In this document: positions 195 to 14,952 of the stretch, piece by piece
How positions within the stretch are numbered: position 1 is the first letter of the stretch
How the letters are laid out: every line of letters begins with the position of its first letter
Virus record (IMG/VR): IMGVR_UViG_3300026197_000010
Location: 1-21,533 of that record
Length of the DNA: 21,533 nt
Origin: a virus
Strand: one strand, 5' to 3'
Position numbers and translations under genes: made by a program
The notes under the pieces: model-generated
What the model saw: the letters and a program-made list of their open reading frames with translations, nothing else
The model's database searches: none
What the model was told of the DNA's origin: nothing

Positions 195-1091
195 ATGGTA
201 TTCAATCCGTTACAACAACTTGGAACTTCTTTAAGAACTCAAGTCAACGGAGTCTTTAATGACTTTAGGAGTCAAGCACAGTCTAGTGTACAAAATCTAG
301 TAGGCAGTGCGTTAAATGTCAACACTGGTGTGAGATTTATTGACAACACAGTTAACAACTTTGTTGGAGACACAATAGGAGATTTCTTCAATAGCACAGG
401 TTTTAACAGTGCTTCGAGAAGTAGAAATCTGCCTAATGCTGCTACAGGAAGAATATCAACTAGAACTACAGCACAGTGGAGTGCTTCAGGTTCTGATTCA
501 GATTGGCGTGTTAGATTAAGTGTTCCTTCGCAGTTTGGAAACAGCAGATTGCTAAGTCCATTGAGCAGAACAGGCGGGTTAGTTTTTCCTTATACTCCGT
601 CTATTATTATAGGACACAGTGCAAGTTACAATCAACTGCATCCTGTACATACAAACTATCCATTTCAAGTTTATGAAAACAGTAGAACTGATGATATTGT
701 TATCACAGGAGACTTCACTGTTGAAAACGCAGAAGAAGGTAGATATTGGGTAGCCGCAGTACATTACCTAAGAAGTGTAACCAAAATGTTTTATGGCGAT
801 GGCGAAAACTCAGGTGCTCCGCCGCCGCTAGTAAAACTAAATGGCTATGGTGATTATGTTTTTAATAACGTTCCCTGTGTAGTTACAAACTTCACTGTAG
901 ATTTACCGTCTGATGTTGATTATATTTCCTGTGTGATTGAATCGGACTCATCAGGTACATCTTGGGCTCCTACACAGAGTATTATATCAGTTACACTACA
1001 ACCAACTTATAGTCGTTCAAGAGTATCAGAGTTTAACTTAAATGATTTTGTTAATGGAAAATATGTAACAAACGGAACAGGATTCATCTAA
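195..1091 (+). CDS. gp48: Baseplate tail-tube cap protein, gp48/gp54 type
   Basis: This 298-residue protein probably sits on top of the baseplate hub and starts tail-tube polymerisation. The recognisable core is at about residues 130-205. It contains PYTPSIIIGHSASYN, a HTNYPF segment, and a run ending in AEEGRYWVAAVHYLRSVTKMF, a pattern typical of gp48/gp54-like tube-cap proteins. The N-terminal 70 residues are amphipathic and contain VNNFVGDTIGDFF, which is echoed in the next large protein. T4 gp48 is 364 and gp54 320 residues, so this one is slightly short. The start is supported by AGGAGA at 183-188, six bases upstream, and by the late promoter. It is the first gene of the rightward operon, with its stop one base before the gp53-like gene. 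Whether it corresponds to gp48 or gp54 cannot be settled by eye; gp48 is chosen because of the following gp53. Confidence 0.68.
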   Translation: MVFNPLQQLGTSLRTQVNGVFNDFRSQAQSSVQNLVGSALNVNTGVRFIDNTVNNFVGDTIGDFFNSTGFNSASRSRNLPNAATGRISTRTTAQWSASGSDSDWRVRLSVPSQFGNSRLLSPLSRTGGLVFPYTPSIIIGHSASYNQLHPVHTNYPFQVYENSRTDDIVITGDFTVENAEEGRYWVAAVHYLRSVTKMFYGDGENSGAPPPLVKLNGYGDYVFNNVPCVVTNFTVDLPSDVDYISCVIESDSSGTSWAPTQSIISVTLQPTYSRSRVSEFNLNDFVNGKYVTNGTGFI

Positions 1092-1092
1092 T

Positions 1093-1395
1093 ATGGCAAA
1101 CTATCCGGAAACCAGTCCGTGGCATAGAACAAAACTTACTAGTTTAGGTAGTTTAGGAATATTGAGTATTCGTCCTATACCTGCTGCTAGTGATGATCCT
1201 CAGTATACGATAGAGCCACAATATACCCATAGACCTGATTTGCTTGCTTATGATTATTATGGCACACCTAAGCTATGGTGGGTTTTTGCACAGAGAAATA
1301 TGGATATTATTAAAGATCCTGTTTATGATATGCGAGCAGGAACGACGATATATCTTCCAAAGCCGGATGCATTAAAGAAGATATTAGGAGTTTAA
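1093..1395 (+). CDS. gp53: Short gp53-like baseplate wedge protein with LysM-like fold
   Basis: The 100-residue product carries the LysM-like signature of gp53. RPDLLAYDYYGTPKLWWVF (about residues 47-65) is followed by AQRNMDIIKDP and then AGTTIYLPKP, the usual 'low disc-shaped domain, WW, N, D/P, G, I-lP' order. T4 gp53 (196 residues) lies between neighbouring wedges and helps join them around the hub. Here only the LysM-like half is present, so the protein is about half the T4 length. The LysM fold in baseplate proteins binds protein partners and is not evidence of peptidoglycan binding. The gene starts one base after the previous stop with only a weak AGG upstream (1079-1081), so translational coupling is likely. 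It ends one base before the next ATG. Confidence 0.72.
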   Translation: MANYPETSPWHRTKLTSLGSLGILSIRPIPAASDDPQYTIEPQYTHRPDLLAYDYYGTPKLWWVFAQRNMDIIKDPVYDMRAGTTIYLPKPDALKKILGV

Positions 1396-1396
1396 A

Positions 1397-4300
1397 ATGT
1401 CATTTAACCCTAGTAGAATTATCAACAGCAGAATCAATACACTGAGATCTACTGCATCAGATTTAGGTCAAAATTTACAAAGCAATTTTGAAGAACAGTT
1501 ACCATTGTTAGATGTTTCTAGACAGTTAAGATCTACTTCTCTTAGAGTCATGGATAGAGCCGAAGTGGGAATAAATGATATTTCTAGTTCATTTCAAGAA
1601 AGTTTAGGAAACCTAAGTAATATAGTTCCAGGAGCACTAGGAAATGTAGCACAAGGAGTAGGAGCAACATTAGGAAGAGTTGACGACGTTCTTGGAGGAA
1701 TTCGAGATTTTGCTTCTGAAGGATTTACAGGTTTAGCAAATAGTGCTTTAGCAAATGTAGGTGACAGAGTAGAAAACTTTTTTGGAGATTTTATAGGAGA
1801 TTTTGCTAAACTTGAACTGTCTCCTGGACAACTTTTAACTAGTTTAGGAGCCAGTAGCAGTGTTGTTGGAAGTTTAACAACACCTGAAGCCAAACCTTCT
1901 CCTAAGTTTTCTAAAGTCAAAAATCAGATTCGAGACTTTGCAAGTTATAACTGTATTACAACACTTGGTGTGATATCTTCTCAGAGTTTGGAAAATCCAG
2001 AAGCAACATATAGAAGCCGTGGTGCTGATTATACTATTTTAAGAAGTGGCGGCGGGGGGATTGAAAACTCTCAAAGAGTACTAACTGCTTATGATTATGA
2101 AGCAACAGGAAATCTTGAATATTTTATTGATGATATTGAAATAGGAGCAATAGTTCATCCTAATCAGAGTACTAGTGTTAGTACAGCAACTACGCTTACT
2201 TTTAAAGTTTATGAACCCTACAGTTTAGGATTATTCCTACAAAGTCTTCAAATAGGTGCGTTTAATACTGGTTATGAAAACTATCTAGAAGCAGTATATC
2301 TCTTAGAACTTGACTTTATTGGCTGGGACGAAGATAATAATCCTGTGCAAATAGAATATTCAAGTAGAAAAATTCCTATTAAAATTACAAAAGTAGATTT
2401 CAATGTAGAACAAGGCGGATCAGTTTATGAAATAAGAGCAATAGCCTATAATGAAATAGCATTTTCAGACGAAGTACAGAGAGTACAAGACAGCATTTCA
2501 ATAACTGGTGCTACTGTTGCTGACTGTTTAACTTTTGGCGAAAGAAGTCTTACTTCTTATCTGAATACAAAACTGCAAGACACTGCTAGAGAGGAAGGCT
2601 TGTCAACAAGTGACTTGTACACTATTATTTTCCCTTCGTCGATTGCTAACCAAACTTCACCTACTGAAACAGGCAGTTCTGCAACACTGACAGAACTAGA
2701 ACAGCAAAGGACTATATTTGGCGCACAGCTAATGGATGACGAAGGAAACGTGTCACAGTATGTAGAATCAGCTAGGAATAATTCAAGCAGTGCAACATTT
2801 AACTCGTTAGTAAGCAGTTCGATTACTGATGTTAATGTTATAGGTGCTTCTGAACAGATTGAAAACTTTAATGCTGCTGGAGATCATCCTTTTGGATTTG
2901 CTAACTTTATTCTAAATCCTGAAACAAATGTTTATGAAAGAAACTCAGTTCAGTTGTCCTTAAGTGATACAAACAGAGAGTTTAGATTCCCTCAAGGAAT
3001 GACAATACAAAAAATCATAGAAGACATAGTTTTAACCAGTGGTTATGGTAGAGACATAGCAACTGCTGTTGAAGATGAAAATAGTATGATACCTTGGTTT
3101 AGAATTGAAAGTGAAATATATCATATTGAAGACACACAGTTTGAAAGTGTTAGAGGAAGAAAAGCAAGAGTTTATGTTTACAAAGTAATACCTTATGAAA
3201 TAAGTGCTTCTAATATTGTTGCTCCGGGTAGAAGTGCAGCTAATCTTCCTAATCTAGCAGGTCATGCAGTTAAGGAATACAACTATATCTTTACAGGTAA
3301 AAATGAAGACGTATTAGGATTTGACATTCAGTTCAATGCAGCATTTTTCGAAGCAGTGAGAGCAGACAGAAATAATCTAGGATACAACGAAATATTAAAT
3401 GCACAGAACCAGTTAACTGGAGTCGATCCGGATCCGGATTATACAACAGCAGGTTCTAATGAAACAATATCAGAAGCTGCTAGACGACGCATAGATGCGG
3501 GAGGCACAGCTTCTGGAAGTCAAGGTCGATCAGAAAATACTATTAACAACGGCGATCAAACCGGCGGCGGCGAACGTACAAAGGCAACAAATCTTGCAAG
3601 ACAAATACACAATGCACTCTTAAATAGTGCTGTTGATTTAATCAGTGCTGATTTAGAAATATGGGGAGATCCATATTTCTTACCCGATTCTGGATTAGGA
3701 AACTATTCAGCTGGCCGCGGCCCGACTATTGCTATTAACGATCAAGGCACTATGGATTATCAGCGTAACGAAGTTGATATTATTGTAAACTTCAGAACAC
3801 CTGTAGATTATAATGAACAAGGATCCATGTCTTTCCCTGAAGATACATTAGGAACTAGAGCTATTAAAGGGTTTAGTGGTCTTTACAAAGTGTTAAAAGT
3901 TACATCAACAATATCAGGAAATCAGTTTAAACAATCATTGCAGATTTTAAGAAGAAGAAACCAGGAGATAGAAGGAGTTTCGGATTCTCGAATATTAAGG
4001 CAAGACCCAAATGCTTCCTTCAACCCGAACGAGCGATCAAATAGTCCTGGACAAGCTGGAACAGGTAATGGAGATGTACTAACTACAGGCGACGCAAGAT
4101 CTGCTCCACAATCGATAGCTGTTCCTTCAGAAGATTTGCGTAGATCGACTACGCCGTTAACAAATCCTCCGAGTGGTCCTAGTGATTCGGGTTCGAGCGG
4201 TCCTAGACCAGGAGATCAAGTTGTTTCTTATGATGCGTTTGGAGACCCTGTAACTCAAGCAGAACTAGAAGCACAGGTTCCTCTTGACGCTTTTGGAGGA

Positions 4301-4549
4301 CCTGGGATAGTTGCTGCACCTGAAAGAAGATTTGGAACATTTAATGCAGATGGCACAGTAGTAGGTCCCAGAAGTCCTGCTGCTGCTCCTCGAAGAAGTT
4401 TTGGAACATTTAACTCTGACGGAACTGTGCAAGGATCAGGCCAAGCAGCAAGGCCAGGAAGTCGTCCTGCTCCTAGCCCAAGATCTAATCTTTTGGAAAG
4501 AAACAACGCTGCCGGCAGCTTCGGGAACACTGGTTCTAATATAGCGTAA
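1397..4549 (+). CDS. Large baseplate hub-like structural protein
   Basis: This 1050-residue protein probably forms the hub ring that holds the spike, the role of gp27/gpD-type proteins. Residues 1-165 are an amphipathic, Gly/Ala/Ser-rich N-terminal region. Around 272-316 is YEPYSLGLFLQSLQIGAF and an EAVYLLELDFIGWDED strand pair, then IPIKITKVDF and GGSVYEIRAIAYNE; the same pattern occurs in marine T4-like 'structural' proteins as I remember them. The segment DLEIWGDPYFLP (about 752-763) is typical of hub proteins. Residues about 675-720 form a polar insertion in the hub domain that carries the RRRIDAGGT cassette. Residues about 860-1050 are Pro/Ser/Gly-rich and contain two RxFGTFNxDGT repeats. 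AGGAG at 1386-1390 fixes the start. The hub assignment rests on motifs and gene order; it could instead be a gp29-linked or hub-decorating protein. Confidence 0.6.
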   Translation: MSFNPSRIINSRINTLRSTASDLGQNLQSNFEEQLPLLDVSRQLRSTSLRVMDRAEVGINDISSSFQESLGNLSNIVPGALGNVAQGVGATLGRVDDVLGGIRDFASEGFTGLANSALANVGDRVENFFGDFIGDFAKLELSPGQLLTSLGASSSVVGSLTTPEAKPSPKFSKVKNQIRDFASYNCITTLGVISSQSLENPEATYRSRGADYTILRSGGGGIENSQRVLTAYDYEATGNLEYFIDDIEIGAIVHPNQSTSVSTATTLTFKVYEPYSLGLFLQSLQIGAFNTGYENYLEAVYLLELDFIGWDEDNNPVQIEYSSRKIPIKITKVDFNVEQGGSVYEIRAIAYNEIAFSDEVQRVQDSISITGATVADCLTFGERSLTSYLNTKLQDTAREEGLSTSDLYTIIFPSSIANQTSPTETGSSATLTELEQQRTIFGAQLMDDEGNVSQYVESARNNSSSATFNSLVSSSITDVNVIGASEQIENFNAAGDHPFGFANFILNPETNVYERNSVQLSLSDTNREFRFPQGMTIQKIIEDIVLTSGYGRDIATAVEDENSMIPWFRIESEIYHIEDTQFESVRGRKARVYVYKVIPYEISASNIVAPGRSAANLPNLAGHAVKEYNYIFTGKNEDVLGFDIQFNAAFFEAVRADRNNLGYNEILNAQNQLTGVDPDPDYTTAGSNETISEAARRRIDAGGTASGSQGRSENTINNGDQTGGGERTKATNLARQIHNALLNSAVDLISADLEIWGDPYFLPDSGLGNYSAGRGPTIAINDQGTMDYQRNEVDIIVNFRTPVDYNEQGSMSFPEDTLGTRAIKGFSGLYKVLKVTSTISGNQFKQSLQILRRRNQEIEGVSDSRILRQDPNASFNPNERSNSPGQAGTGNGDVLTTGDARSAPQSIAVPSEDLRRSTTPLTNPPSGPSDSGSSGPRPGDQVVSYDAFGDPVTQAELEAQVPLDAFGGPGIVAAPERRFGTFNADGTVVGPRSPAAAPRRSFGTFNSDGTVQGSGQAARPGSRPAPSPRSNLLERNNAAGSFGNTGSNIA
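3467..3508 (+). repeat. Linker cassette A, copy 1 (ISEAARRRIDAGGT)
   Basis: These 42 bases encode residues 691-704 of the hub-like protein. A second copy at 8957-8998 in a different gene differs at 6 of 42 bases, and 12 of 14 residues are identical (E/D and A/S differ). The copy sits in a Gly/Asn/Thr-rich insertion between conserved hub segments. Confidence 0.8.
4283..4300 (+). repeat. Linker cassette B, copy 1 (LDAFGG)
   Basis: Encodes LDAFGG at residues 963-968 of the hub-like protein, a short distance before the RxFGTFNxDGT pair. The same six residues recur at 8903-8920 in the 7736-10954 gene, there placed after the matching FNxDGT motif. YDAFGD at about residues 943-948 may be a degenerate extra copy. 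Confidence 0.6.
4325..4435 (+). repeat. Linker cassette C, tandem pair (RxFGTFNxDGTVxG)
   Basis: Two copies, at 4325-4372 and 4391-4435, encode RRFGTFNADGTVVGPR and RRSFGTFNSDGTVQG near the C-terminus of the hub-like protein. They are separated by an Ala/Pro spacer and share the 13 bases tttggaacattta. A related single copy, ERSFASFNPDGTLVRGPR, lies at 8813-8866 in another gene. Confidence 0.8.
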
Positions 4550-4583
4550 CCGATAACTATTAATAAAGATTTGAAGAGGTAAC

Positions 4584-7500
4584 ATGTCAAGAAGTAGTAG
4601 ACGTACAAATGCTGATAGTATTTTAAGAGAACTAATATCAAGTCGTCCAGGACCTTTTGAAGCCATTGTCGTAAGCCATATGGACCCAAAGTACATGGGT
4701 TCTCTAAAGGTTGATATATTAAGGAAAAACTCAGCAAACTCTCGACCCGAAAGAGTTGGTACTACTATTGATGTTAGATACCTTTCTCCGTTTTATGGGG
4801 TTACAAACTATGACTATGCTAACCCGAATGATGGGTACGAAAACACTCAAAAGTCATATGGTTTTTGGGCAGTCCCGCCTGATCCTGGCACACGAGTACT
4901 TGTAATATTTGCTGAAAATGATATTAGTCGAGGATACTGGATAGGGTGTATCCAAGACGAATATATGAACTTTATGGTTCCAGACGGCAGAGCTAGTACT
5001 ATACTTTCAACGGACGGAACTCCTGATTCCCTTAAAAATCGAAAACTGCCAGTTGGCGAATATAATAAAAAAGTAGAAACTGGAGAAGCAAGAGATCCAA
5101 CTCTTTTCAAAAAACCATACAATAAAGACTTTACAGAAATATTAGAAGTTCAAGGTTTGTTAGACGACGAAGTTAGAGGATTAACAACATCAAGTGCAAG
5201 AAGAGAACTACCGAGTGCAGTTTACGGTTGGAGTACTCCGGGACCGATTGATAAAAGAATAAACGCTCCGCAAGGCAGATATGGAGAACAAGATCACGAA
5301 GCACTTATATTTGTAAACCGTTTAGGTGGTTCTAGTATTGTCATGGACGACGGTGATGATAAGTTTATTAGAGCTACCCATGCCGCCGACGGACCTCCTT
5401 ATTATGTGAACAAAGAAATCGGTGAACCCGGTGGCGACGAAACAATACCTCAAAATGAAGGTATTAGATTTAGAACTCGTACTGGTCATCAAATACTCTT
5501 AAGCAACAGTGAAGATTTGATCTATATAGGTAACTCTAGGGGAACTGCTTGGATAGAACTAACTAGCGATGGCAAGATTGATATATTTGCTAATGATAGC
5601 ATAAGTGTTTATTCAGAGCAAGATTTTAACTTTACTGCTGACAGAGATATCAACTTCGATGCAGGCAGAAATGTTAATATGTGGGCTAGTGGTAGATGGT
5701 CGGATAAGCAAACAGTGTTTGCTCCAGGCGGTATTAGAAGCGGCGAAGTTACTATAATGGGGCATTCTAATACTACAGTTCGTGGCGGCGAAAGTTCTTC
5801 ATCTCTTACACTAGATAACGACAATATCAACATAAAAGTAAATCAAGAAATACGACTTGAAACTGCTAGTGATTTTCATATTAAAGCAGGCGGCGATATT
5901 ATTATAGATTCTGAAAGTTCTTTAAATGTTACTGCTGACACAAACTTATTACTTAAATCAGGTAATAATATAGTAGTAGAAAGCCAAGAGTTCTTCAATC
6001 AAGTTTCGAATAACTTAAATGTTTCAGTTGGTGCAAACTACAGAGAAAATATAGGTGCAAACAGAGATTCTACAATCAATGGTAGCAGTAATACTAGAGT
6101 TGAAGCTACTAATAACTTATTAGTTTCTTCAGAAAGTCATACTATAATATCAGGATCGTCGTATCACGAAGTTTCTGGCAATGCTCATGTTATTACTAGA
6201 GGAACTACCTTTGCTAGCACTGAAGGTGATCAAAACGTATCAGTTACAGGATCTTCATTTACAGAAATAACAGGCGATCGAAACAGTGTAGTTTCTGGAT
6301 CTTCATTTAGTGAGATCACTGGTGACGAAAATAACTTAGTTTCAGGATCATCATATAATGAAATATCCGGCGATCAAAACAGCTTAGTTTCAGGTACTAG
6401 CTTCCATACAGCATCAGGTGATGTAAACATTCAAGGTGCTAACATAAACATGGATTCATCTGGAAACATAAATCAAAACACAGGAGCATCGTCGCCTGCA
6501 ATGCCAGGTTCTTTAGGATCTCCAGTAACTTCGGCTTCACCTGCACAAACCACAGTTATATCATCGAGCTCGGTTATTGGGCTAACAGGTGGATCACCTA
6601 GAAGAACTTATGGTGCGTTTGCTCCTGGGCATCTTAGCGGCTATGCAGTTCCGAGAATCATACCAGGTGTAGTAACCGAAGAACCATTACAGATTATAAC
6701 CATCTGTACTAGAGTACCTCAACACGAACCTTGGCCTCATCATGAAAATCTTGATCCTGTTAGCTTCAAACCTGAAAATCTTGACAGAGAACGTATGGAA
6801 AGAGAACTAGAACCGGCTGATAGAATAATAACACCTGACACTTTCTTAAAAGGTAGAGCAGAACTACTAACCAGTACTTTACAGAACGGGTTAAGAGGAG
6901 CCAATGGTCAAGTTATTACACCAGGAAGTAATACTACTGGTACAGCACCGTCAGGAACTTCTCCAGTGACAGCTACGCCAGGAACTGTACAAGGTGTCAC
7001 TGCAAGTGGCGATGGATCGATTAATAGAGGTAGAACTGGTCCTAACTTCCAAGCTAGCGTATTAAGAGGAGCAGCACCTAGAGGAAATCCAAGTCTAGCA
7101 CCGGGGAGGAGTACTATGATCGGTGTATCCGGAGGCCGAGCTGATTTAGGTCCTCTTGCACAAGGTAATCCGTTTGGAAGTTCACAAGGAATAGTTGGCG
7201 GAAATATTAACGGAAGAACTTACGGAAAACGAAGAGAACCAGTTAATCAAAAACTAGTAGAACTATTAGGAGAAGCCGCAGCTTATAGCAAAGTTGACGT
7301 CCATATAGAAGTTCCGGGACAAGTAGCATATAACGATCCTCGAGCAAGCAGTTCTAATAGGATAGGATCAAGACGACACGATAGAGGATTTGCTGTAGAT
7401 ATGGATTTAAAAGATCAAGGACGATTTTTAAACTGTAATAATCCAAACGACTTATCTAAGATAATAACGTTTGTCAGAGCGTTTAGAGATTTTGCTAGAC

Positions 7501-7736
7501 AAGCAGGAGAAAGACCAGCTGGTGCTATCGGCAATGGATATATGAATGGTCCAGATGGAACAAAACGAATGCACTTAGATATTGCTGACGGAAACGTGCA
7601 GAATGTTGGAAATAACTTGTCGTATCATTGGAAGCAAACCTTGACAAAAGCATGGATGTGGGCAATAATGTTTAACTCAGGACCAGATGACGGCATGCCG
7701 GACTCTAATGGTAGAATAATCGGATGGAATGACTAA
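4584..7736 (+). CDS. gp5: gp5-like baseplate spike with octad beta-helix and C-terminal M15-type peptidase
   Basis: This 1050-residue protein is the likely membrane-piercing spike. Residues about 20-135 fit the gp5 OB domain (GPFEAIVVSHMDPKYMG, then PPDPGTRVLVIF and SRGYWIGCIQDEY). There is no T4-type lysozyme domain after it. Residues about 225-370 have VgrG/gp5-type needle strands (GHQILLSNSED, IELTSDGKIDI). Residues 474-617 form 18 octads of the V/I-x-G-x5 kind, as in T4 gp5C. A His-rich PQHEPWPHHE (712-721) follows. A Gly/Pro/Thr linker leads to residues about 885-1010, which carry SRRHDRGFAVDMD (H932, D939) and MHLDIA (H997), the HxxGxAxD plus HxD zinc-ligand pattern of M15 peptidases that cut peptidoglycan stems. 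The usual catalytic Glu three residues before the last His is not obvious (K994 is there). GAAGAGG (4573-4579) precedes the start. The stop overlaps the next ATG. Confidence 0.85.
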   Translation: MSRSSRRTNADSILRELISSRPGPFEAIVVSHMDPKYMGSLKVDILRKNSANSRPERVGTTIDVRYLSPFYGVTNYDYANPNDGYENTQKSYGFWAVPPDPGTRVLVIFAENDISRGYWIGCIQDEYMNFMVPDGRASTILSTDGTPDSLKNRKLPVGEYNKKVETGEARDPTLFKKPYNKDFTEILEVQGLLDDEVRGLTTSSARRELPSAVYGWSTPGPIDKRINAPQGRYGEQDHEALIFVNRLGGSSIVMDDGDDKFIRATHAADGPPYYVNKEIGEPGGDETIPQNEGIRFRTRTGHQILLSNSEDLIYIGNSRGTAWIELTSDGKIDIFANDSISVYSEQDFNFTADRDINFDAGRNVNMWASGRWSDKQTVFAPGGIRSGEVTIMGHSNTTVRGGESSSSLTLDNDNINIKVNQEIRLETASDFHIKAGGDIIIDSESSLNVTADTNLLLKSGNNIVVESQEFFNQVSNNLNVSVGANYRENIGANRDSTINGSSNTRVEATNNLLVSSESHTIISGSSYHEVSGNAHVITRGTTFASTEGDQNVSVTGSSFTEITGDRNSVVSGSSFSEITGDENNLVSGSSYNEISGDQNSLVSGTSFHTASGDVNIQGANINMDSSGNINQNTGASSPAMPGSLGSPVTSASPAQTTVISSSSVIGLTGGSPRRTYGAFAPGHLSGYAVPRIIPGVVTEEPLQIITICTRVPQHEPWPHHENLDPVSFKPENLDRERMERELEPADRIITPDTFLKGRAELLTSTLQNGLRGANGQVITPGSNTTGTAPSGTSPVTATPGTVQGVTASGDGSINRGRTGPNFQASVLRGAAPRGNPSLAPGRSTMIGVSGGRADLGPLAQGNPFGSSQGIVGGNINGRTYGKRREPVNQKLVELLGEAAAYSKVDVHIEVPGQVAYNDPRASSSNRIGSRRHDRGFAVDMDLKDQGRFLNCNNPNDLSKIITFVRAFRDFARQAGERPAGAIGNGYMNGPDGTKRMHLDIADGNVQNVGNNLSYHWKQTLTKAWMWAIMFNSGPDDGMPDSNGRIIGWND
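6003..6434 (+). repeat. Octapeptide beta-helix repeats of the spike
   Basis: Residues 474-617 divide without gaps into 18 octads, for example VTGSSFTE, ITGDRNSV, VSGSSFSE, ITGDENNL, VSGSSYNE, ISGDQNSL. The pattern V/I-x-G-x5 is the one that builds the T4 gp5 triple-stranded beta-helix. At DNA level the best copies form 48-base units at 6225-6272, 6273-6320, 6321-6368 and 6369-6416, each coding two octads that begin one turn apart (GDxN and SGSSF halves). The outer octads at both ends are degenerate. Confidence 0.85.
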
Positions 7737-10700
7737 TGAGTAATCAATATCAGATAACAAGGCAAGATCAAGGTATTTTAAACTTAATATCTCACGCAAA
7801 TGGTATTTCTGATACTAGGTCTAGATATAATATGATTAATGGCCAAGCAAGTCAGCCAGTTGATCAAATGACTATAGAGCAAGTATTACAATCGTTTACT
7901 GATGTTACTGTAGGTGCTTATAGTTTAACAAATGATACTTTGTCATCGTTTGTAGAAAGTGCTGGAATCAACCGAACCCTTAGATTTACTCCAGCAGTAC
8001 AAGATTTTATAGCTTTATCTTTAATACTTACACATGCTAACTATGATCAATGGAAAAGCGGAAGTTGTTCAGACAGTGAAAACGGTGATCATGATCCGAG
8101 ATTAACTAGGGATGTATGGAGCGGCCCGCCAGATAACTTTAATCACGCAGTATTTTTGTTAAATCTCTGCAAAATCTTTCCTAGTCTTCCTATTCCTATT
8201 AGGTTAAACGAATACACAAATGAAGAAGGAACAACTTATTCTAGGCCTATAAACTCATCTTACTACGGTGAAGAAGATTTAGCAAAAGGAAACTCTAGAA
8301 CTTTAATAATGGAGTTGAAGTCTATTTTTAGTAGAGGTTCAAGAAACTCAATGACAGTTAGTTTGATAAACTCTCAGGCTTATGTTCCTTCATCTACTCA
8401 AAGTGCGTTAAACGCAGCAGGCGGTGGCCAAGATTATATGAGGCAAGCCCGCCCTCATGCTAACAACGACATAGGATCGTTAAAAGATTTAAGAGCACGA
8501 GAGCCCAGGTCTCAACCTGCAACTAATACTAATAGAGCTCAGCCATCTGTTTTTGACCAAGCATTACAGGATTTTGAATCAAACTCTTTCAACCTTAGCA
8601 CTGTAGGAACTGATACAATAACTCTTCAAAGTTTTGATTTAAACACTCCTCGAACATCTCCAGATCCGAATGCGTTTGTTGGAAGTCGAGTAGACTTTGG
8701 TAGTTTTCCTAATTCTGAAACACCTGTTGGTCCAAGGATTGAAAATTTGCCAAGCTATGATTTAGATGCTCCTGTAGAAGAAGCTACTGCTACTTCAGGA
8801 CCAGTTTTACCGGAGAGAAGTTTTGCAAGTTTCAACCCAGACGGAACACTGGTGAGAGGACCAAGAACACCGTCCCAAGCAGATAGAGAAGCTGAGGTAG
8901 GGTTAGATGCGTTCGGAGGTGCAGGCGATGATGTACCGTCTGCTAGCAATCCTGAAATATCAGACTCTGCTAGACGTCGAATAGATGCAGGCGGCACAGG
9001 CGCGAGTGATACTGGAGGCACCGGAGGCGCCGGAGGCGGGCGTGGCGGCGACCCTAGAAACTTTGGAGCACCTAGTATATCATCGCCAGTAGCAGGACTA
9101 TTACCGGACCCAGGAAATCCGTATGAGTATCAATACATAGATCCGTTAGATAACAGGTATGATTTTAGAACTGGAAAAAAAGTAATTGACTTATTGATAA
9201 ATGGAACTGCTTCTGCTGCTTCGTACGCCAACGACCCTAATGCTCGTAGATACGGTGAAGTAGGAGCAAGCTTACCGGGTCAAGGCTATGGCGGAAATGC
9301 AGACGCTCGCCGCCCGAACCCAAATCTTACCGGAAACTCTCCTAGAACTCCAGGAAGTTCTGCTGGTCCTAGTCCGTATGATCCTATAGAATTTAATACA
9401 GATGCTTACATTGTGAGAAATATTATTGAAAACCCTGTAGACTCAAATGGGAATGTTGTTGTTATTGCAACACCTGATGGAAGAGTTGCAGAACTAGAAC
9501 AAGGACAAGTGTTGTTTACTTCTCCAGGCGTAGATGGAGCACCTGGAGAAACTATTACAATATCTAGTATTAGTCCGGGAGGTGCAGTTACGTTATCAAA
9601 TGGAGAGACGCTAAATAGGGTAGGGCAATATGGCGACAGTAACAGTGTTATTGGGGGTAAAATCAATGACATTGCTCCGGCAGATGAAGAACCTGCCGGA
9701 GAATATTTGCCTATTAGGGGATCTATTGAAAACGACATTGCACTTCTGAATGCGTTAGTACAAGAAGAAACTTCGTATGTTCGTGTAATACCGATAGATA
9801 TAGGCGACGGCAAAGCTCATTATGTAAGTTCGGGTTATTACAGAGACTCAAGAGGTGACTGGCCGTATACTGCACTATCTCCACGAGGAAGTGCTACAAC
9901 TTCAAGAGCACCTGAGTTTGCAGTACAAGTTGCTCAACGATTAAACGGGTCACTTCCTCCTAGGGAAGTAATACAATGGATTGAAACCGAAGCAAATGTA
10001 GATCATTGGTTAGTAGGATTTACAGGAGATCCGGATAGCGACTCTACAAGAGAACAGGTTAATAACAGAATAAGAGAAGAGTTTAGGTCGAGGGGAATAC
10101 AGCCCGGAGAACTAGTCGCAGGCCACAAAAAGAGTTTTGATAAAGATGGCGGTTTTTGGGGACTTGCAAAACCCGAAGGCGGGATATATCAAAACGGTGG
10201 AGCATTTAGTAACGTTCATTCTACAGATTACACCGACTATTCACACGGTACAAGAATATACTGGGGCGGCATTGATTTAGAATCTGGTGAAAGATTTGGA
10301 CCTGTACAACTATTAAGAAGTGGTTCGCCGCAGATAGGAGATCCTGAAAGTTGGTCTGCAACACCACCTGGAGAACAACCGTCTTATATGAACGATTCTC
10401 AATGGGAGTTGCTAAACAGAGGAACTTCGGGACAAGATCCGACTGAAACTGTAAGAGCAGTTGAAGAAGTAGCAACCGAACTAGGAGTTCACCCTTCTGC
10501 TATTATGGGAAAACTGCAAACGGAATCAGCCTTAGGAGGGTTATACAGTTTTGATCGCCTTAACAGTGGTACATTTCGAGGCGCCTGGCAAGCAGGTCGA
10601 GGTGTATTTGATGACAACGGCGGAGCATTAACTAGTTTAGATGGCAACTCGTATACCTTTGAGCAATATTCTCAGTTGTCTTATGCTGATCAGATTAGAG

Positions 10701-10954
10701 TTTATCCTTCCTATTTGAGAAGTTACAATAACTGGAATAACAATCTTTCTAACTCAATCGGAGATTATCCGCCGGATGTTCAGTTCGCAGTTCTTCAAGG
10801 ATTACAGTTTGCTCCAAATGGTAGTTGGGTAAGAGAGTTTGACAATGGTGTTTATACTGTACCTACAACAAGGTCTCAGCAGTCTATGTCAGCATCAACT
10901 GGAACTAGTATCAATGGGTTGTTAGACTGGTGGGATAGAGGTTTCTCAAACTGA
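7736..10954 (+). CDS. Multidomain baseplate-associated protein with several hydrolase-like domains
   Basis: The 1072-residue product probably attacks or binds the cell wall from the baseplate centre. Residues about 10-110 resemble a phage muramidase fold (GILNLISHANG, YNMINGQ, MTIEQVL, VGAYSLTNDTL, FTPAVQDFIALSLIL), but N22 stands where such enzymes have the AEG/GEG glutamate. Residues about 225-560 are a low-complexity linker with Gly-rich stretches and cassettes A-C shared with the hub-like protein. Residues about 655-850 hold LVAGHKK (H797) and DYTDYSHGTRI (H837), which recall a conserved domain of phage and bacterial proteins sometimes annotated as hydrolase. Residues about 908-1050 look like a lytic transglycosylase (VATELGVHPSAIMGKLQTES, candidate catalytic E930, then AWQAGRG and LSYADQIRVYPSYL). 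The start ATG overlaps the spike stop (TAATG). The domain assignments are from motif memory, with the C-terminal one most secure. Confidence 0.7.
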   Translation: MSNQYQITRQDQGILNLISHANGISDTRSRYNMINGQASQPVDQMTIEQVLQSFTDVTVGAYSLTNDTLSSFVESAGINRTLRFTPAVQDFIALSLILTHANYDQWKSGSCSDSENGDHDPRLTRDVWSGPPDNFNHAVFLLNLCKIFPSLPIPIRLNEYTNEEGTTYSRPINSSYYGEEDLAKGNSRTLIMELKSIFSRGSRNSMTVSLINSQAYVPSSTQSALNAAGGGQDYMRQARPHANNDIGSLKDLRAREPRSQPATNTNRAQPSVFDQALQDFESNSFNLSTVGTDTITLQSFDLNTPRTSPDPNAFVGSRVDFGSFPNSETPVGPRIENLPSYDLDAPVEEATATSGPVLPERSFASFNPDGTLVRGPRTPSQADREAEVGLDAFGGAGDDVPSASNPEISDSARRRIDAGGTGASDTGGTGGAGGGRGGDPRNFGAPSISSPVAGLLPDPGNPYEYQYIDPLDNRYDFRTGKKVIDLLINGTASAASYANDPNARRYGEVGASLPGQGYGGNADARRPNPNLTGNSPRTPGSSAGPSPYDPIEFNTDAYIVRNIIENPVDSNGNVVVIATPDGRVAELEQGQVLFTSPGVDGAPGETITISSISPGGAVTLSNGETLNRVGQYGDSNSVIGGKINDIAPADEEPAGEYLPIRGSIENDIALLNALVQEETSYVRVIPIDIGDGKAHYVSSGYYRDSRGDWPYTALSPRGSATTSRAPEFAVQVAQRLNGSLPPREVIQWIETEANVDHWLVGFTGDPDSDSTREQVNNRIREEFRSRGIQPGELVAGHKKSFDKDGGFWGLAKPEGGIYQNGGAFSNVHSTDYTDYSHGTRIYWGGIDLESGERFGPVQLLRSGSPQIGDPESWSATPPGEQPSYMNDSQWELLNRGTSGQDPTETVRAVEEVATELGVHPSAIMGKLQTESALGGLYSFDRLNSGTFRGAWQAGRGVFDDNGGALTSLDGNSYTFEQYSQLSYADQIRVYPSYLRSYNNWNNNLSNSIGDYPPDVQFAVLQGLQFAPNGSWVREFDNGVYTVPTTRSQQSMSASTGTSINGLLDWWDRGFSN
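8813..8920 (+). repeat. Linker cassettes C and B, second location
   Basis: Residues 360-377 (ERSFASFNPDGTLVRGPR, 8813-8866) match cassette C of the hub-like protein, and residues 390-395 (LDAFGG, 8903-8920) match cassette B. The order is C then B here, but B then C in the hub-like protein, and cassette A follows at 8957-8998 (upstream of B in the hub-like protein). The surrounding linker is otherwise unalignable by eye. Confidence 0.72.
8957..8998 (+). repeat. Linker cassette A, copy 2 (ISDSARRRIDAGGT)
   Basis: Encodes residues 408-421 of the 7736-10954 protein and is the partner of 3467-3508. Of six base differences, those in the RRRIDAGGT part are all synonymous third-position changes. A Gly-rich run (GGTGGAGGGRGG) follows directly. 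Confidence 0.8.
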
Positions 10955-10965: not shown

Positions 10966-11412
10966 ATGAGCACATTAGAAAAAAATCTTTACAAACGAGT
11001 AGTAGTTGACGATGCCCAGACACCGAAAAAGCCTGCGTCTAGTGCAGTATATCGTGGCTTCTCGACGGTCAATGTAGAAAATCCAACATTTAACTTATAT
11101 GATATTGCAGTTATTAAACAAGATATCATAAATCATTTTCATATTCGTCAGGGTGAAAAACTGGAAAATCCAGAGTTTGGAACCATAGTCTGGGATGTGC
11201 TCTACGAACCTTTAACAGACAATCTAAAACAGGCAATCGTAGAAAATGTTGAAGAAATAATAAACTATGATCCTCGAGTTGCAGCAGATAATGTAATTGT
11301 AGATTCCTACGAAAGTGGCATTCAAATAGAGTGTGTTATTACCTATTTGAACTACAGTATTGCTGAAACTATGATACTACAGTTTGATCAATCTATCGGT
11401 CTTATCAGTTAA
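10966..11412 (+). CDS. gp25: Baseplate wedge protein gp25
   Basis: This 148-residue protein is a clear gp25/GPW family member (T4 gp25 is 132 residues). It forms part of the inner wedge core, where it contacts the sheath and gp6. Diagnostic segments are NPTFNLYDIAVIKQDIINHF (about 40-59), RQGEKLENPEFGTIVWDVLYEP (about 63-84), and NYDPRV (100-105). D102-P103-R104 stands at the site of the conserved Glu-Pro-Arg motif of the family, a conservative Asp-for-Glu change. The N-terminal 30 residues are charged and variable. The ATG is 11 bases after the previous stop with no ribosome site close by. Expression must therefore depend on coupling or on the GATAAATA element at 10953-10960. The lysozyme label sometimes given to gp25 is historical; no catalytic residues are expected. 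Confidence 0.95.
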   Translation: MSTLEKNLYKRVVVDDAQTPKKPASSAVYRGFSTVNVENPTFNLYDIAVIKQDIINHFHIRQGEKLENPEFGTIVWDVLYEPLTDNLKQAIVENVEEIINYDPRVAADNVIVDSYESGIQIECVITYLNYSIAETMILQFDQSIGLIS

Positions 11413-11469: not shown

Positions 11470-14400
11470 ATGTCAATAACTGATAGGCAGAATAGACTTC
11501 TTGTTGCAGAAGACTGGAAAAGAGTATATCAAACATTTCGAAATGCAGATTTTCAAAGTTATGATTTTGATAACTTAAGAAGAACAATGATCAACTACCT
11601 CCGCCAAAACTATCCGGAGGATTTTAACGACTATATCGAAAGTTCAGAATATCTTGCACTTATTGATTTGATTGCGTTCTTAGGTCAAAACCTTGCTTTC
11701 CGTATTGATTTAAATGCTAGAGAAAACTTTCTTGAACTTGCTGAAAGAAGAGAAAGTGTTCTTCGTCTTGCAAGATTGCTGTCATACAATCCAAGAAGAA
11801 ATCAGGCTGCTAATGGTTTGTTAAAAATCGTCAGTGTAAGTACAACAGAAGATGTGTTTGATTCTAATAATACTAACCTTAAAGGTCGTACTATTGAATG
11901 GAACGATAGCACTAACAGCAACTGGTTTGAACAGTTTACAAAGGTTCTTAACACTGCTCTTCCTGTAAACGGAGTAGTTGGCAGACCCAACAAAGTTGAC
12001 ACAGTTGCAGGTATACCTACAGAGCAATATCGCATAAATGGTATCAATACCAATGTTCCTGTATTTTCATTTACAAAACCGATTGAAGGTAAAACTACTC
12101 AGTTCGAGATCACAAGTACTGACGTAGTAGATGGAGAAATACAAGAAGAACCGCCAGTTCCCGGAAACAACTTTGCGTTTCTCTATAGAGATGACGGACA
12201 AGGTGCAGGCAGCACTAACAGCGGATTCTTCTGTCATTTCCGTCAAGGAAAACTGTCAAATGGTGACTTTTCAATCACCCAATCAGCTGCAAATCAATCA
12301 GTAGCTATTGACACTATTAACATTAATGATACTGATGTTTGGCTTTATAAGTTAGATGCTAATAACAACGAATCAGAACTATGGACTAAAGTAGATGCTG
12401 TTGAAGGAAACAACATTATTTACAACTCCCTTAACAAAAAAATAAGAACAGTTTACAGTGTTTTAACACGAATAGATGATAGAATCAATCTTGTTTTTGC
12501 CGACGGAGTGTTTGGTGATTTACCAAACGGTAACTTTAGGACTTATTATCGTACTAGTGAAAATAGATCAATGGTAATAGCACCTACTAATATGTTTGGT
12601 ATTAACTTTTCTACTTCATATTTGAGTAAAACTGGTAGAGTTGAAAATATTACATTTACCTGTTCTCTACAATATACTGTTGCAAACGGATCAAGATCTG
12701 AGTCAAACGCAAGCATTAAGACCAATGCTCCTGCAACGTATTATACACAGAACAGAATGATAACTGGTGAAGATTACAATATTGCTCCACTGGGTGTAAG
12801 TCAGGAAATAGTAAAAGCAAAGTCAGTTAACAGAACGTCAAGTGGGATAAGTCGTTATTTTGATTTGATCGACTCAACTGGAAAATATTCTAGTACTAAT
12901 CTGTATGGTAATGACGGAGTAGTTTATAAAGAATATGTTGACTCAACTATGACATTTTCTTTTAATACTCAAACTGATATAGAAGGTATTGTTATCAACG
13001 ATATTGAACCTATATTATCAGACAATAAAGTTAATCATTTTTACTTTGACAGATTTTCAAGAATACTGTTGAGTGATCTAAATGCCTATTGGACTGAAGT
13101 AACAGACTCATTTAACACTTATACTGGATACTTTGTTACTGATTTTAACACTGACAGTCCTCGTCAGTTAACTGTTGGCAGTTTTACAAGAAACAACTTG
13201 AGATATATTGAACCTGGAAGTTTAGTTAAGTTTGTACCACCTACAGGAAGTTGTTTTGATAAGAACAACAACATTGTTTCAAGAACGCCAAGTCAGTTAG
13301 GTGATAAATCTTATATTTGGACCAAGGTAATAAAAGCAACTGGCAATGGAACAGTTACAGATGTAACAGATGTTGACGAAGGTCCTATTGCGTTCACCGA
13401 CAAGATTCCAACAGGTTCGCAGATTTCACAGATCCGTCCAAAAGTAGCAGAATCATTTGTTGATGATGTAAAGCGACAAATCATTGATCAAACTTTTGCA
13501 TACAACAACTTTGGTTTAAGATTTGATGATAACGACAGAAGATGGAAGTTGATTAGAGCATCAAACTTAAACTCAAGAGGTGACTTTAGTACAGGCTTTG
13601 CAGGAGATACTTCAGGCCAAGGTCTTGATGCTAGTTGGTTAATCAAGTTTGAAACAAATGGAGAAAACTATAAAGTAACATATCGTGGTTTAAGGTATGT
13701 GTTTGAAAGTGACGAAGAGATTCGTTTTTATTACGATTCGAGTGATAGAATATATGACAATCTAACTGGTAAAATAGTTAAAGATAAAATATCAGTTTTA
13801 AGCGTTAACACACAACCAGAATCGATTCAGCCTTTCACTCAAGAGTATGATTGGGAGATTCTAAAAGAATACAGAGATCGAGATGGCTATATTGACAGTA
13901 CTAGAATCGAAGTAACTTTCTTTGATGAAGACAGTGACGGTGTTCCTGACAATCCTGAGGTATTTAGATATCTAGTAGAAGAAGGTGTCTCTGACGATAA
14001 GAATAAAATAGTAGTTCAAGAAAGATATCTAACCGAAGCAGGCACAGAAGATTTTCGTTATGTAGATTGGGAAGCAGCAGGAATAGAAGTGTTCCAAACT
14101 GAAGGACAAGAGTTACCACCTAGCTCTTATCAACCTGGTCAAATAGTTTACTTTATTGACACAGATGTGTTTAAGAAACTAAACGACAGAGGTGATAGAT
14201 TTGAGTTTACTTCTGACTACAAAGCATATATTGGAAGAGATAAGCTAAAGTTTCATTATGTTCACAGTGCTGATTCAAACAGCAGAATCGACCCAAGTGC
14301 AAGCAACATAATGGACACATATCTTCTTACAAGAGGATATGACAGAAACTACAGACTTTATCTCGACGGACAACTTTCACCTATGCCTAAGCCGCCAAGT

Positions 14401-14952
14401 TCTGATGAGTTGTTTAGGAGTTTTGGTAGAGAGTTAAATAAAATAAAATCAATCAGTGATGAAATCATTTATCATCCTGTAAAATATAAACCATTGTTTG
14501 GATCAAAGGCGAACGTAGACTTGCAAGCAACATTTAAAATAGTAAAAAATCCTGAACAGGTATTGAACGATAACGACGTAAAAACTAGAGTTATTGATGC
14601 AGTTAATCAATACTTTGCGTTAGAGAACTGGGATTTTGGTGACACTTTCCATTTCCAAGAACTAGCAACTTATGTAATGAATCAACTTGCACCTGATCTA
14701 GTAACATTTGTAATAGTTCCAAATCAAAACGGTCAAACATTTGGTAGCTTGTTTGAAATCAAATCAGAAGCAGATGAAATCTTTATCAATGCTGCAACTG
14801 TAGCAGATGTTGAAATAATAGACGAAGTTACAGCGTCAAGATTAAACGCATCAGGTAGAGTTGTAACACAATCGGATATAACAAACAGAACAGGCATACA
14901 AAGCGCACCGTCAACTGGTGTAATCACTACAACTGGAGGTTTTAGTTACTAA
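11470..14952 (+). CDS. gp6: Baseplate wedge protein gp6, enlarged
   Basis: This 1160-residue protein is a gp6/baseplate-J family member, much longer than T4 gp6 (660 residues). gp6 joins neighbouring wedges into a continuous ring around the hub. The N-terminal 120 residues are classic gp6 (DFDNLRRTMINYLRQNYPEDF, YLALIDLIAFLGQNLAFRIDL, ARENFLELAERRESVLRLA). The J-type core includes DRINLVFADGVFGDLPNGNF (about 337-356) and ITGEDYNIAPLG (431-442). The C-terminal part has PLFGSKANVDLQATFKIV, VNQYFALENWDFGDTFHFQE and INAATVADVEII, which fit the gp6 C-terminal domain. The extra length lies mainly at about residues 500-950, in beta-rich, Asp/Tyr-rich sequence with no recognised motif. AGAGGA (11458-11463) and an upstream late promoter support the start. 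The stop overlaps the next ATG. Confidence 0.93.
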   Translation: MSITDRQNRLLVAEDWKRVYQTFRNADFQSYDFDNLRRTMINYLRQNYPEDFNDYIESSEYLALIDLIAFLGQNLAFRIDLNARENFLELAERRESVLRLARLLSYNPRRNQAANGLLKIVSVSTTEDVFDSNNTNLKGRTIEWNDSTNSNWFEQFTKVLNTALPVNGVVGRPNKVDTVAGIPTEQYRINGINTNVPVFSFTKPIEGKTTQFEITSTDVVDGEIQEEPPVPGNNFAFLYRDDGQGAGSTNSGFFCHFRQGKLSNGDFSITQSAANQSVAIDTININDTDVWLYKLDANNNESELWTKVDAVEGNNIIYNSLNKKIRTVYSVLTRIDDRINLVFADGVFGDLPNGNFRTYYRTSENRSMVIAPTNMFGINFSTSYLSKTGRVENITFTCSLQYTVANGSRSESNASIKTNAPATYYTQNRMITGEDYNIAPLGVSQEIVKAKSVNRTSSGISRYFDLIDSTGKYSSTNLYGNDGVVYKEYVDSTMTFSFNTQTDIEGIVINDIEPILSDNKVNHFYFDRFSRILLSDLNAYWTEVTDSFNTYTGYFVTDFNTDSPRQLTVGSFTRNNLRYIEPGSLVKFVPPTGSCFDKNNNIVSRTPSQLGDKSYIWTKVIKATGNGTVTDVTDVDEGPIAFTDKIPTGSQISQIRPKVAESFVDDVKRQIIDQTFAYNNFGLRFDDNDRRWKLIRASNLNSRGDFSTGFAGDTSGQGLDASWLIKFETNGENYKVTYRGLRYVFESDEEIRFYYDSSDRIYDNLTGKIVKDKISVLSVNTQPESIQPFTQEYDWEILKEYRDRDGYIDSTRIEVTFFDEDSDGVPDNPEVFRYLVEEGVSDDKNKIVVQERYLTEAGTEDFRYVDWEAAGIEVFQTEGQELPPSSYQPGQIVYFIDTDVFKKLNDRGDRFEFTSDYKAYIGRDKLKFHYVHSADSNSRIDPSASNIMDTYLLTRGYDRNYRLYLDGQLSPMPKPPSSDELFRSFGRELNKIKSISDEIIYHPVKYKPLFGSKANVDLQATFKIVKNPEQVLNDNDVKTRVIDAVNQYFALENWDFGDTFHFQELATYVMNQLAPDLVTFVIVPNQNGQTFGSLFEIKSEADEIFINAATVADVEIIDEVTASRLNASGRVVTQSDITNRTGIQSAPSTGVITTTGGFSY

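Follow-up and report, generated by a model that had tools for sequence, protein, structure and literature searches.

Peptide motifs shared among the disordered linkers of phage tail-tip proteins suggest a small set of exchangeable docking tags

The baseplate cluster of a myophage, contained in a 21,533-base virus record (IMGVR_UViG_3300026197_000010; the whole stretch is called the window here), raises the question of why neighbouring tail-tip proteins with unrelated folded parts carry the same short peptides. A preliminary description of this DNA had reported three peptide cassettes, A, B and C, in disordered linkers of both the hub and a muramidase-like protein encoded after the gp5-like spike (called X below), with the cassettes in a different order in the two proteins. 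We found that the same motifs occur in the linkers of several tail-tip proteins of related phages, where they are shuffled together with domains that cut the cell wall, a pattern that suggests a small set of exchangeable docking tags.

The cassettes lie where they had been described, and their order is A-(B')-B-C-C in the hub and C-B-A in X (Table 1). The two copies of cassette A are identical at 36 of 42 nucleotides, with no more than background identity in the flanks. The LDAFGG sites of cassette B (4283-4300 and 8903-8920) had been located correctly, but the stretch common to hub and X is 18 residues long, which is more than had been given, and a further hub copy, YDAFGD (B'), had been missed. 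All three copies of cassette C stand, with a slight correction to the consensus, as hub copy 2 reads DGTVQGSG and lacks GPR. Comparison with composition-matched local shuffles confirmed that the sharing exceeds expectation. The four best diagonals between hub and X scored 78, 60, 56 and 52. Across 1000 pairs shuffled locally, the top diagonal had a mean score of 40 (maximum 75) and the fourth best never scored above 41.

Structure prediction agreed with the earlier view that the two proteins differ in their folded parts and that the cassettes lie in disorder. The hub, modelled by AlphaFold with 20 hub homologs, has a folded core, and its predicted local distance difference test score (pLDDT) is below 50 across most of residues 648-725 and 858-1050, the two segments that hold all of the hub cassettes. 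Foldseek matched the core to T4 gp27 (1k28_D, E 3.5e-5), Mu gp44 (1wru) and VgrG, and the model indicates that the window hub has this gp27/gp44/VgrG fold. AlphaFold modelled X with some confidence over roughly residues 1-210 and in parts of the C-terminal half; all of the cassettes fall within residues 331-478, where pLDDT is again below 50. A profile of the X family gave a distant match of the N-terminal domain to lambda lysozyme (1am7/3d3d, E ~0.0045), and a region related to X is annotated as lysozyme-like in Rhizobium phages. A fold search with the X model (mean pLDDT 45) gave nothing informative. Judged from these models, the cassettes in both proteins are short segments in predicted disorder, as expected of short linear motifs (SLiMs).

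The hub and the gp54-like protein, used as queries, retrieved from IMG/VR a closest relative, L002, and 20 further loci. Motifs recur there in the same set of proteins, which supports the earlier interpretation. Motif B was found in hubs (window, L006) and in X or small proteins (window, L002, L106, L115), motifs D (GPDDGxR or GDG[TL]RG) and F (GTxPVT) in hub, spike and X, and motifs H, K, G and J in hub and X. A pattern built from the window copies of cassette C alone retrieved 9 IMG/VR contigs. Six of these encode hub homologs, from about three distinct phages, and the homologs have the extended form FG[TR]FN[AS]DGTVQGPGQ.ARP, which is longer than the pattern demanded. The stretch FGTFN[AS]DGTVQG[PS]GQAARPG is near the C-terminus of the window hub (copy 2) and of the L029 and L031 hubs, with a close form near the N-terminus of the L027 hub, and cassette C recurs in hubs that are merely 24-36% identical to that of the window. 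The looser pattern FG.FN.DGT, which matched 79 IMG/VR contigs, added only unrelated proteins and no more real copies.

Motif E (DNRYDFRTGxKV with flanks) changes carrier most plainly. A pattern scan of IMG/VR gave 30 contigs; in 28 of them the carrier of E is a homolog of the hub or of X, or a small protein whose gene adjoins the spike gene. It was present in 16 of 24 whole records (up to 330 kb), in exactly one copy each. Of the 17 sets that include an M15 or muramidase domain, 16 have E, versus 1 of the 8 sets without such a domain; the sets are related, with near-duplicates among them, and these counts are uncorrected for that. L015 has a degenerate form. GTDB genomes gave just two matches to motif E, both attributable to chance, and tblastn searches of cultured phages with peptides of motifs C, E and L returned nothing useful, short queries and the low-complexity filter being a limit here. 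Over 65 linkers, we counted 122 segments shared between protein classes at a score of 46 or more, compared to a mean of 33 (maximum 40) after shuffling; at a score of 60 or more there were 32, compared to 2.4 (maximum 5). Like SLiMs, the motifs recur in proteins with unrelated folded parts (hub, spike and X).

The lysin domains of these phages also change carrier. The M15 peptidase (Pfam) is part of the hub in L006 and L018 and of the spike in L126 and G011, and the L012 spike has a phage lysozyme (Pfam). X carries the muramidase domain in the window, L002 and others, but in L006, L018, L022 and L124 this domain is the C-terminal one of the spike. Because motifs and lysin domains are both found on varying carriers, both move among hub, spike and X. 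The sequences and models show that the motifs are present, fall in predicted disorder, are conserved across relatives, are nearly confined to these proteins, are constrained as peptides and move; binding, its partner and recombination as the route are inferred. We propose that the cassettes are SLiMs in the disordered linkers of three neighbours, the gp27-like hub, the gp5-like spike and X, a tail lysin of muramidase-like type. A component shared within the tail tip probably offers a binding site for each motif. Lysin domains would thereby stay in the tail tip together with their carriers, be they fusions to the hub, fusions to the spike or proteins of their own, and linker recombination would move motifs and adjoining lysin domains between proteins. 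Since a peptide of 10-30 residues must be kept, but not its place, recombination between linkers could relocate motifs. We give this proposal, putative docking motifs spread by linker recombination, about an even chance of being right.

The codons bear on whether the peptide or the DNA is kept. At residues identical between copies, we compared the number of identical codons with the expectation from codon usage. Cassette B has 4 of 12 identical codons (5.35 expected), the hub copies of cassette C have 6 of 12 (5.49 expected), and the two comparisons of C between hub and X have 3 of 9 and 6 of 9 (4.75 and 4.25 expected). These counts are close to those of independent codon choice, so synonymous sites are saturated and the peptide is what is kept. 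The invariant residues of motif E are encoded by several codons, and those of motif L (described below) also vary in codon. In cassette A, 8 of 12 codons are identical (4.85 expected, standard deviation 1.67), more than saturation predicts, and the copy may be younger. Selection on the peptide, which had been argued from the synonymous changes in A, is thus supported by B and C, and less clearly by A. Conservation of the peptide above its surroundings, as in SLiMs, is apparent from the sequences of B, C and E, but not from those of A, which is seen only in this window.

Several results weigh against a docking role. Cassette A had no exact match in IMG/VR, and only the window is known to have it. 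The hub of L002 lacks cassettes A and C, so single cassettes are dispensable. This relative is close (gp54-like protein 97% identical, hub 68% over residues 1-880, with a different hub tail), and loss of the motifs from otherwise conserved proteins had been named as a sign against function. That loss is partial, as the shorter X of L002 keeps a B-like stretch, FNEFGDP, and motif E. Sharing within a phage was not in excess over sharing across phages (10 observed, 7.4 expected, P = 0.17), which points to a vocabulary of the whole lineage and lends no support to tags that belong to a single phage. The phage sets are related and the counts are therefore not independent events. In addition, the models of E, B and L were partly tested on their own source sequences, and the independent evidence consists of the pattern scans and the matches in proteins that were not used for training.

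Some of these results are what would be expected if linkers were shuffled without docking, that is, if they were spacers, recombination copied segments and lysin domains between neighbouring genes, and the cassettes were its traces. The clear movement of lysin domains among hub, spike and X fits this explanation, as do the 86% DNA identity and excess of identical codons in cassette A, the different, cassette-free hub tail of L002, and the lack of excess sharing within phages. However, the residues of B, C, E and L are retained in spite of synonymous variation, and C and E persist at ~24-45% hub identity though the surrounding linkers cannot be aligned. We regard shuffling without docking as possible but doubtful.

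Outside hub, spike and X the motifs are rare or absent. Motif models run over 1,197 open reading frames matched almost solely hub, spike and X. In the 1,030 unique other reading frames of the same contigs (364,016 amino acids) there were zero matches to E, C, L, A, K, F, G or J, five to B, four to D and one to H. A C-terminal GPQ or GAQ ends 12 hub, spike or X proteins (near-duplicates counted), compared to one of the 1,030 others, a GPQ. Such C-termini were observed on the hub and spike of L018, the spike and X of G011, the spikes of L022, L111 and L126, the X of L130 and the hub of L031. Recurrence of a motif in several proteins of one assembly module, together with the enrichment of these C-termini, could also be produced by tags for a chaperone or assembly factor that is absent from the virion and groups the tail-tip proteins before they dock. 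By sequence such tags look the same as motifs for docking within the virion. No conserved candidate chaperone gene was identified near the hub, spike and X genes, and we consider assembly tags unlikely.

Motif L ([VI]G[YF]GxGQ[VI]DP[AG]LAxAxG), which is absent from the window, extends the pattern to other virion proteins. Scanning IMG/VR with a pattern that fixes GxGQ[VI]DP[AG]LA, we found at least 120 stretches; the matches listed include 79 new loci and L115. Among the matches listed, 42 of the 50 distinct 17-mers start with [VITSL]G[YFTH]G, a start in which the pattern itself required no more than the final G, and the carrier proteins, with the motif masked, form 21 clusters, several of them probably due to chance. 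The motif is carried by jumbo-phage hubs, a spike and X, for example at residues 903-1008 of the L115 hub, 450 of the L015 hub, 1055 and 1117 of the L130 hub and 758 of the G012 spike. Further carriers (L207, L269, L257, L219 and others) belong to several unrelated families of phage virion proteins. In L269 the carrier is a T4-like gp5, where the motif, near residue 136, falls after the OB region (18-132) and before a lysin-like one (168-298); in L257 it is a tail tube cap. The largest uncharacterized family is encoded, in L219, near virion, DNA-ejection and endolysin-like genes. In the open-licence literature we found no paper linking GQVDP to a phage protein. A kinship of cassette A with motif L or K was considered and rejected, as the L and K profiles fail to detect A. 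Motif L is the strongest case for a wider idea, that phages of several lineages have a common vocabulary of short motifs in disordered parts of the delivery machinery, read by a common partner, perhaps a host protein. We offer this idea tentatively and think it more likely wrong than right.

The location of the motifs bears on whether they are processing sites, recognized by a phage or host protease that trims the tail-tip proteins. T4 gp5 is trimmed during maturation, and the motifs, many of them close to a lysin domain, are in disordered linkers that connect folded domains and that a protease could reach. However, motif L in some hubs (L015, G011, G001) sits in loops of the core, and motif E, at 25-30 residues with a helix predicted at its end, is long for a cleavage site. 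No candidate protease came to light, though none was looked for. Processing seems rather improbable to us. In-frame mobile DNA elements of the Rickettsia palindromic element kind, inserted in tolerant protein regions, would also leave short in-frame cassettes in different proteins, but DNA conservation does not go beyond the peptide and the copies have no hairpin in common (only the hub copy of A shows one, z -3.2, and the X copy does not), making this origin very hard to credit.

The features of the window are listed in Table 1. The closest cultured phages for the gp6-like protein are the jumbo phages Phosso, SCTP-2, Atu_ph07, Munch and the SNUABM phages, at ~35% identity. The C-terminal tag of the hub, NNxAG..FG..., is common to the window hub, the L002 hub and the X-like protein of L208 (12382-13455); the latter also has motif H, two copies of motif L and an E-like stretch. 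In most relatives, the spike has a strongly conserved RxPxHEPWxHHENxxPxxFKPExxD directly before its variable tail (residues ~708-733 in the window spike). Repeats were seen in several proteins. The X of L002 (7502-9190) contains two copies of YQxINRNDxxSLENVRTPF, and the gene in the position of X in L031 (4217-5500) and L033 (2974-4131) encodes tandem 21-residue repeats, APGPGEGSLDAAAASAQNQQA, of which L031 has four. The L022 hub has a single stretch resembling this repeat.

Table 1. Genes, cassettes and motifs of the window.
Feature	Position	Strand	Sequence or remark
Cassette A, hub copy	3467-3508	+	ISEAARRRIDAGGT
Cassette A, X copy	8957-8998	+	ISDSARRRIDAGGT
Cassette B', extra hub copy	4229-4246	+	YDAFGD, then PVTQAE
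Cassette B, hub copy, extended	4253-4306	+	TQAELEAQVPLDAFGGPG
Cassette B, X copy, extended	8873-8926	+	SQADREAEVGLDAFGGAG
Cassette C, hub copy 1	4319-4372	+	PERRFGTFNADGTVVGPR
Cassette C, hub copy 2	4388-4459	+	PRRSFGTFNSDGTVQGSGQAARPG; matches hub tails of L029 and L031 and N-terminal region of L027 hub
Cassette C, X copy	8810-8866	+	PERSFASFNPDGTLVRGPR
Motif E, X	9119-9202	+	PYEYQYIDPLDNRYDFRTGKKVIDLLIN; in relatives on hub C-terminus, X or small protein
Motif F, spike tail	6954-6971	+	GTSPVT; before M15-like domain; relatives have it in hub, spike and X
Hub C-terminal tag	4496-4546	+	ERNNAAGSFGNTGSNIA; resembles C-termini of L002 hub and L208 X-like protein
gp54-like	195-1091		
gp53-like	1093-1395		
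Hub (T4 gp27 / Mu gp44 fold, predicted)	1397-4549	+	disordered linker ~aa 648-725, C-terminal tail aa 858-1050
gp5-like spike	4584-7736	+	has C-terminal tail
Spike M15-like domain	aa 879-1035		only by homology to L002 gp5 and motif resemblance; no Pfam match to Peptidase_M15_4 in window spike
X	7736-10954	+	muramidase-like N-terminal domain aa 1-210, long disordered cassette-bearing linker, then further C-terminal domains
gp25	10966-11412		
gp6-like	11470-14952		
Long open protein	14952 to record end		

Docking tags, if that is what the motifs are, would account for the exchange of tail-tip lysins between carriers with no new interface needed, and would open to direct testing the question of how separate tail lysins stay in the tip. 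The clearest case for a test is motif E, which is present once per phage while its carrier varies. More generally, conserved function can hide in linkers that are discarded by alignments of folded domains. We found no relevant description of these motifs or of such linker cassettes in the open-licence literature, which does not prove that none exists.

The T4 gp27-gp5 hub-spike complex (PDB 1k28) resembles the proteins described here in its hub fold, its spike with OB and beta-helix parts, and its lysozyme at the tail tip. T4 differs from the phages described here, whose hub and spike bear long disordered tails that have motifs in common and whose lysin can be carried by the hub, the spike or a separate protein. 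In type VI secretion systems, effectors are fused to the VgrG spike or docked to it separately. The arrangement here is similar in that the enzymes are fused or separate, and VgrG structures also matched the window hub, but this is not a secretion system, and what recurs is a short peptide, located in disordered linkers, for which docking is our proposal. Ig-like domains, which are folded and ~90 residues long, are promiscuous among phage structural proteins; they too place the same module in unrelated virion proteins, whereas the modules here are motifs of 10-30 residues in disorder. The motifs also resemble the SLiMs of eukaryotic proteins catalogued in ELM (PMC5753338): like those, the motifs of these phages are short, lie in predicted disorder, are conserved as peptides and recur in unrelated proteins, here in phage tail tips rather than in eukaryotes.

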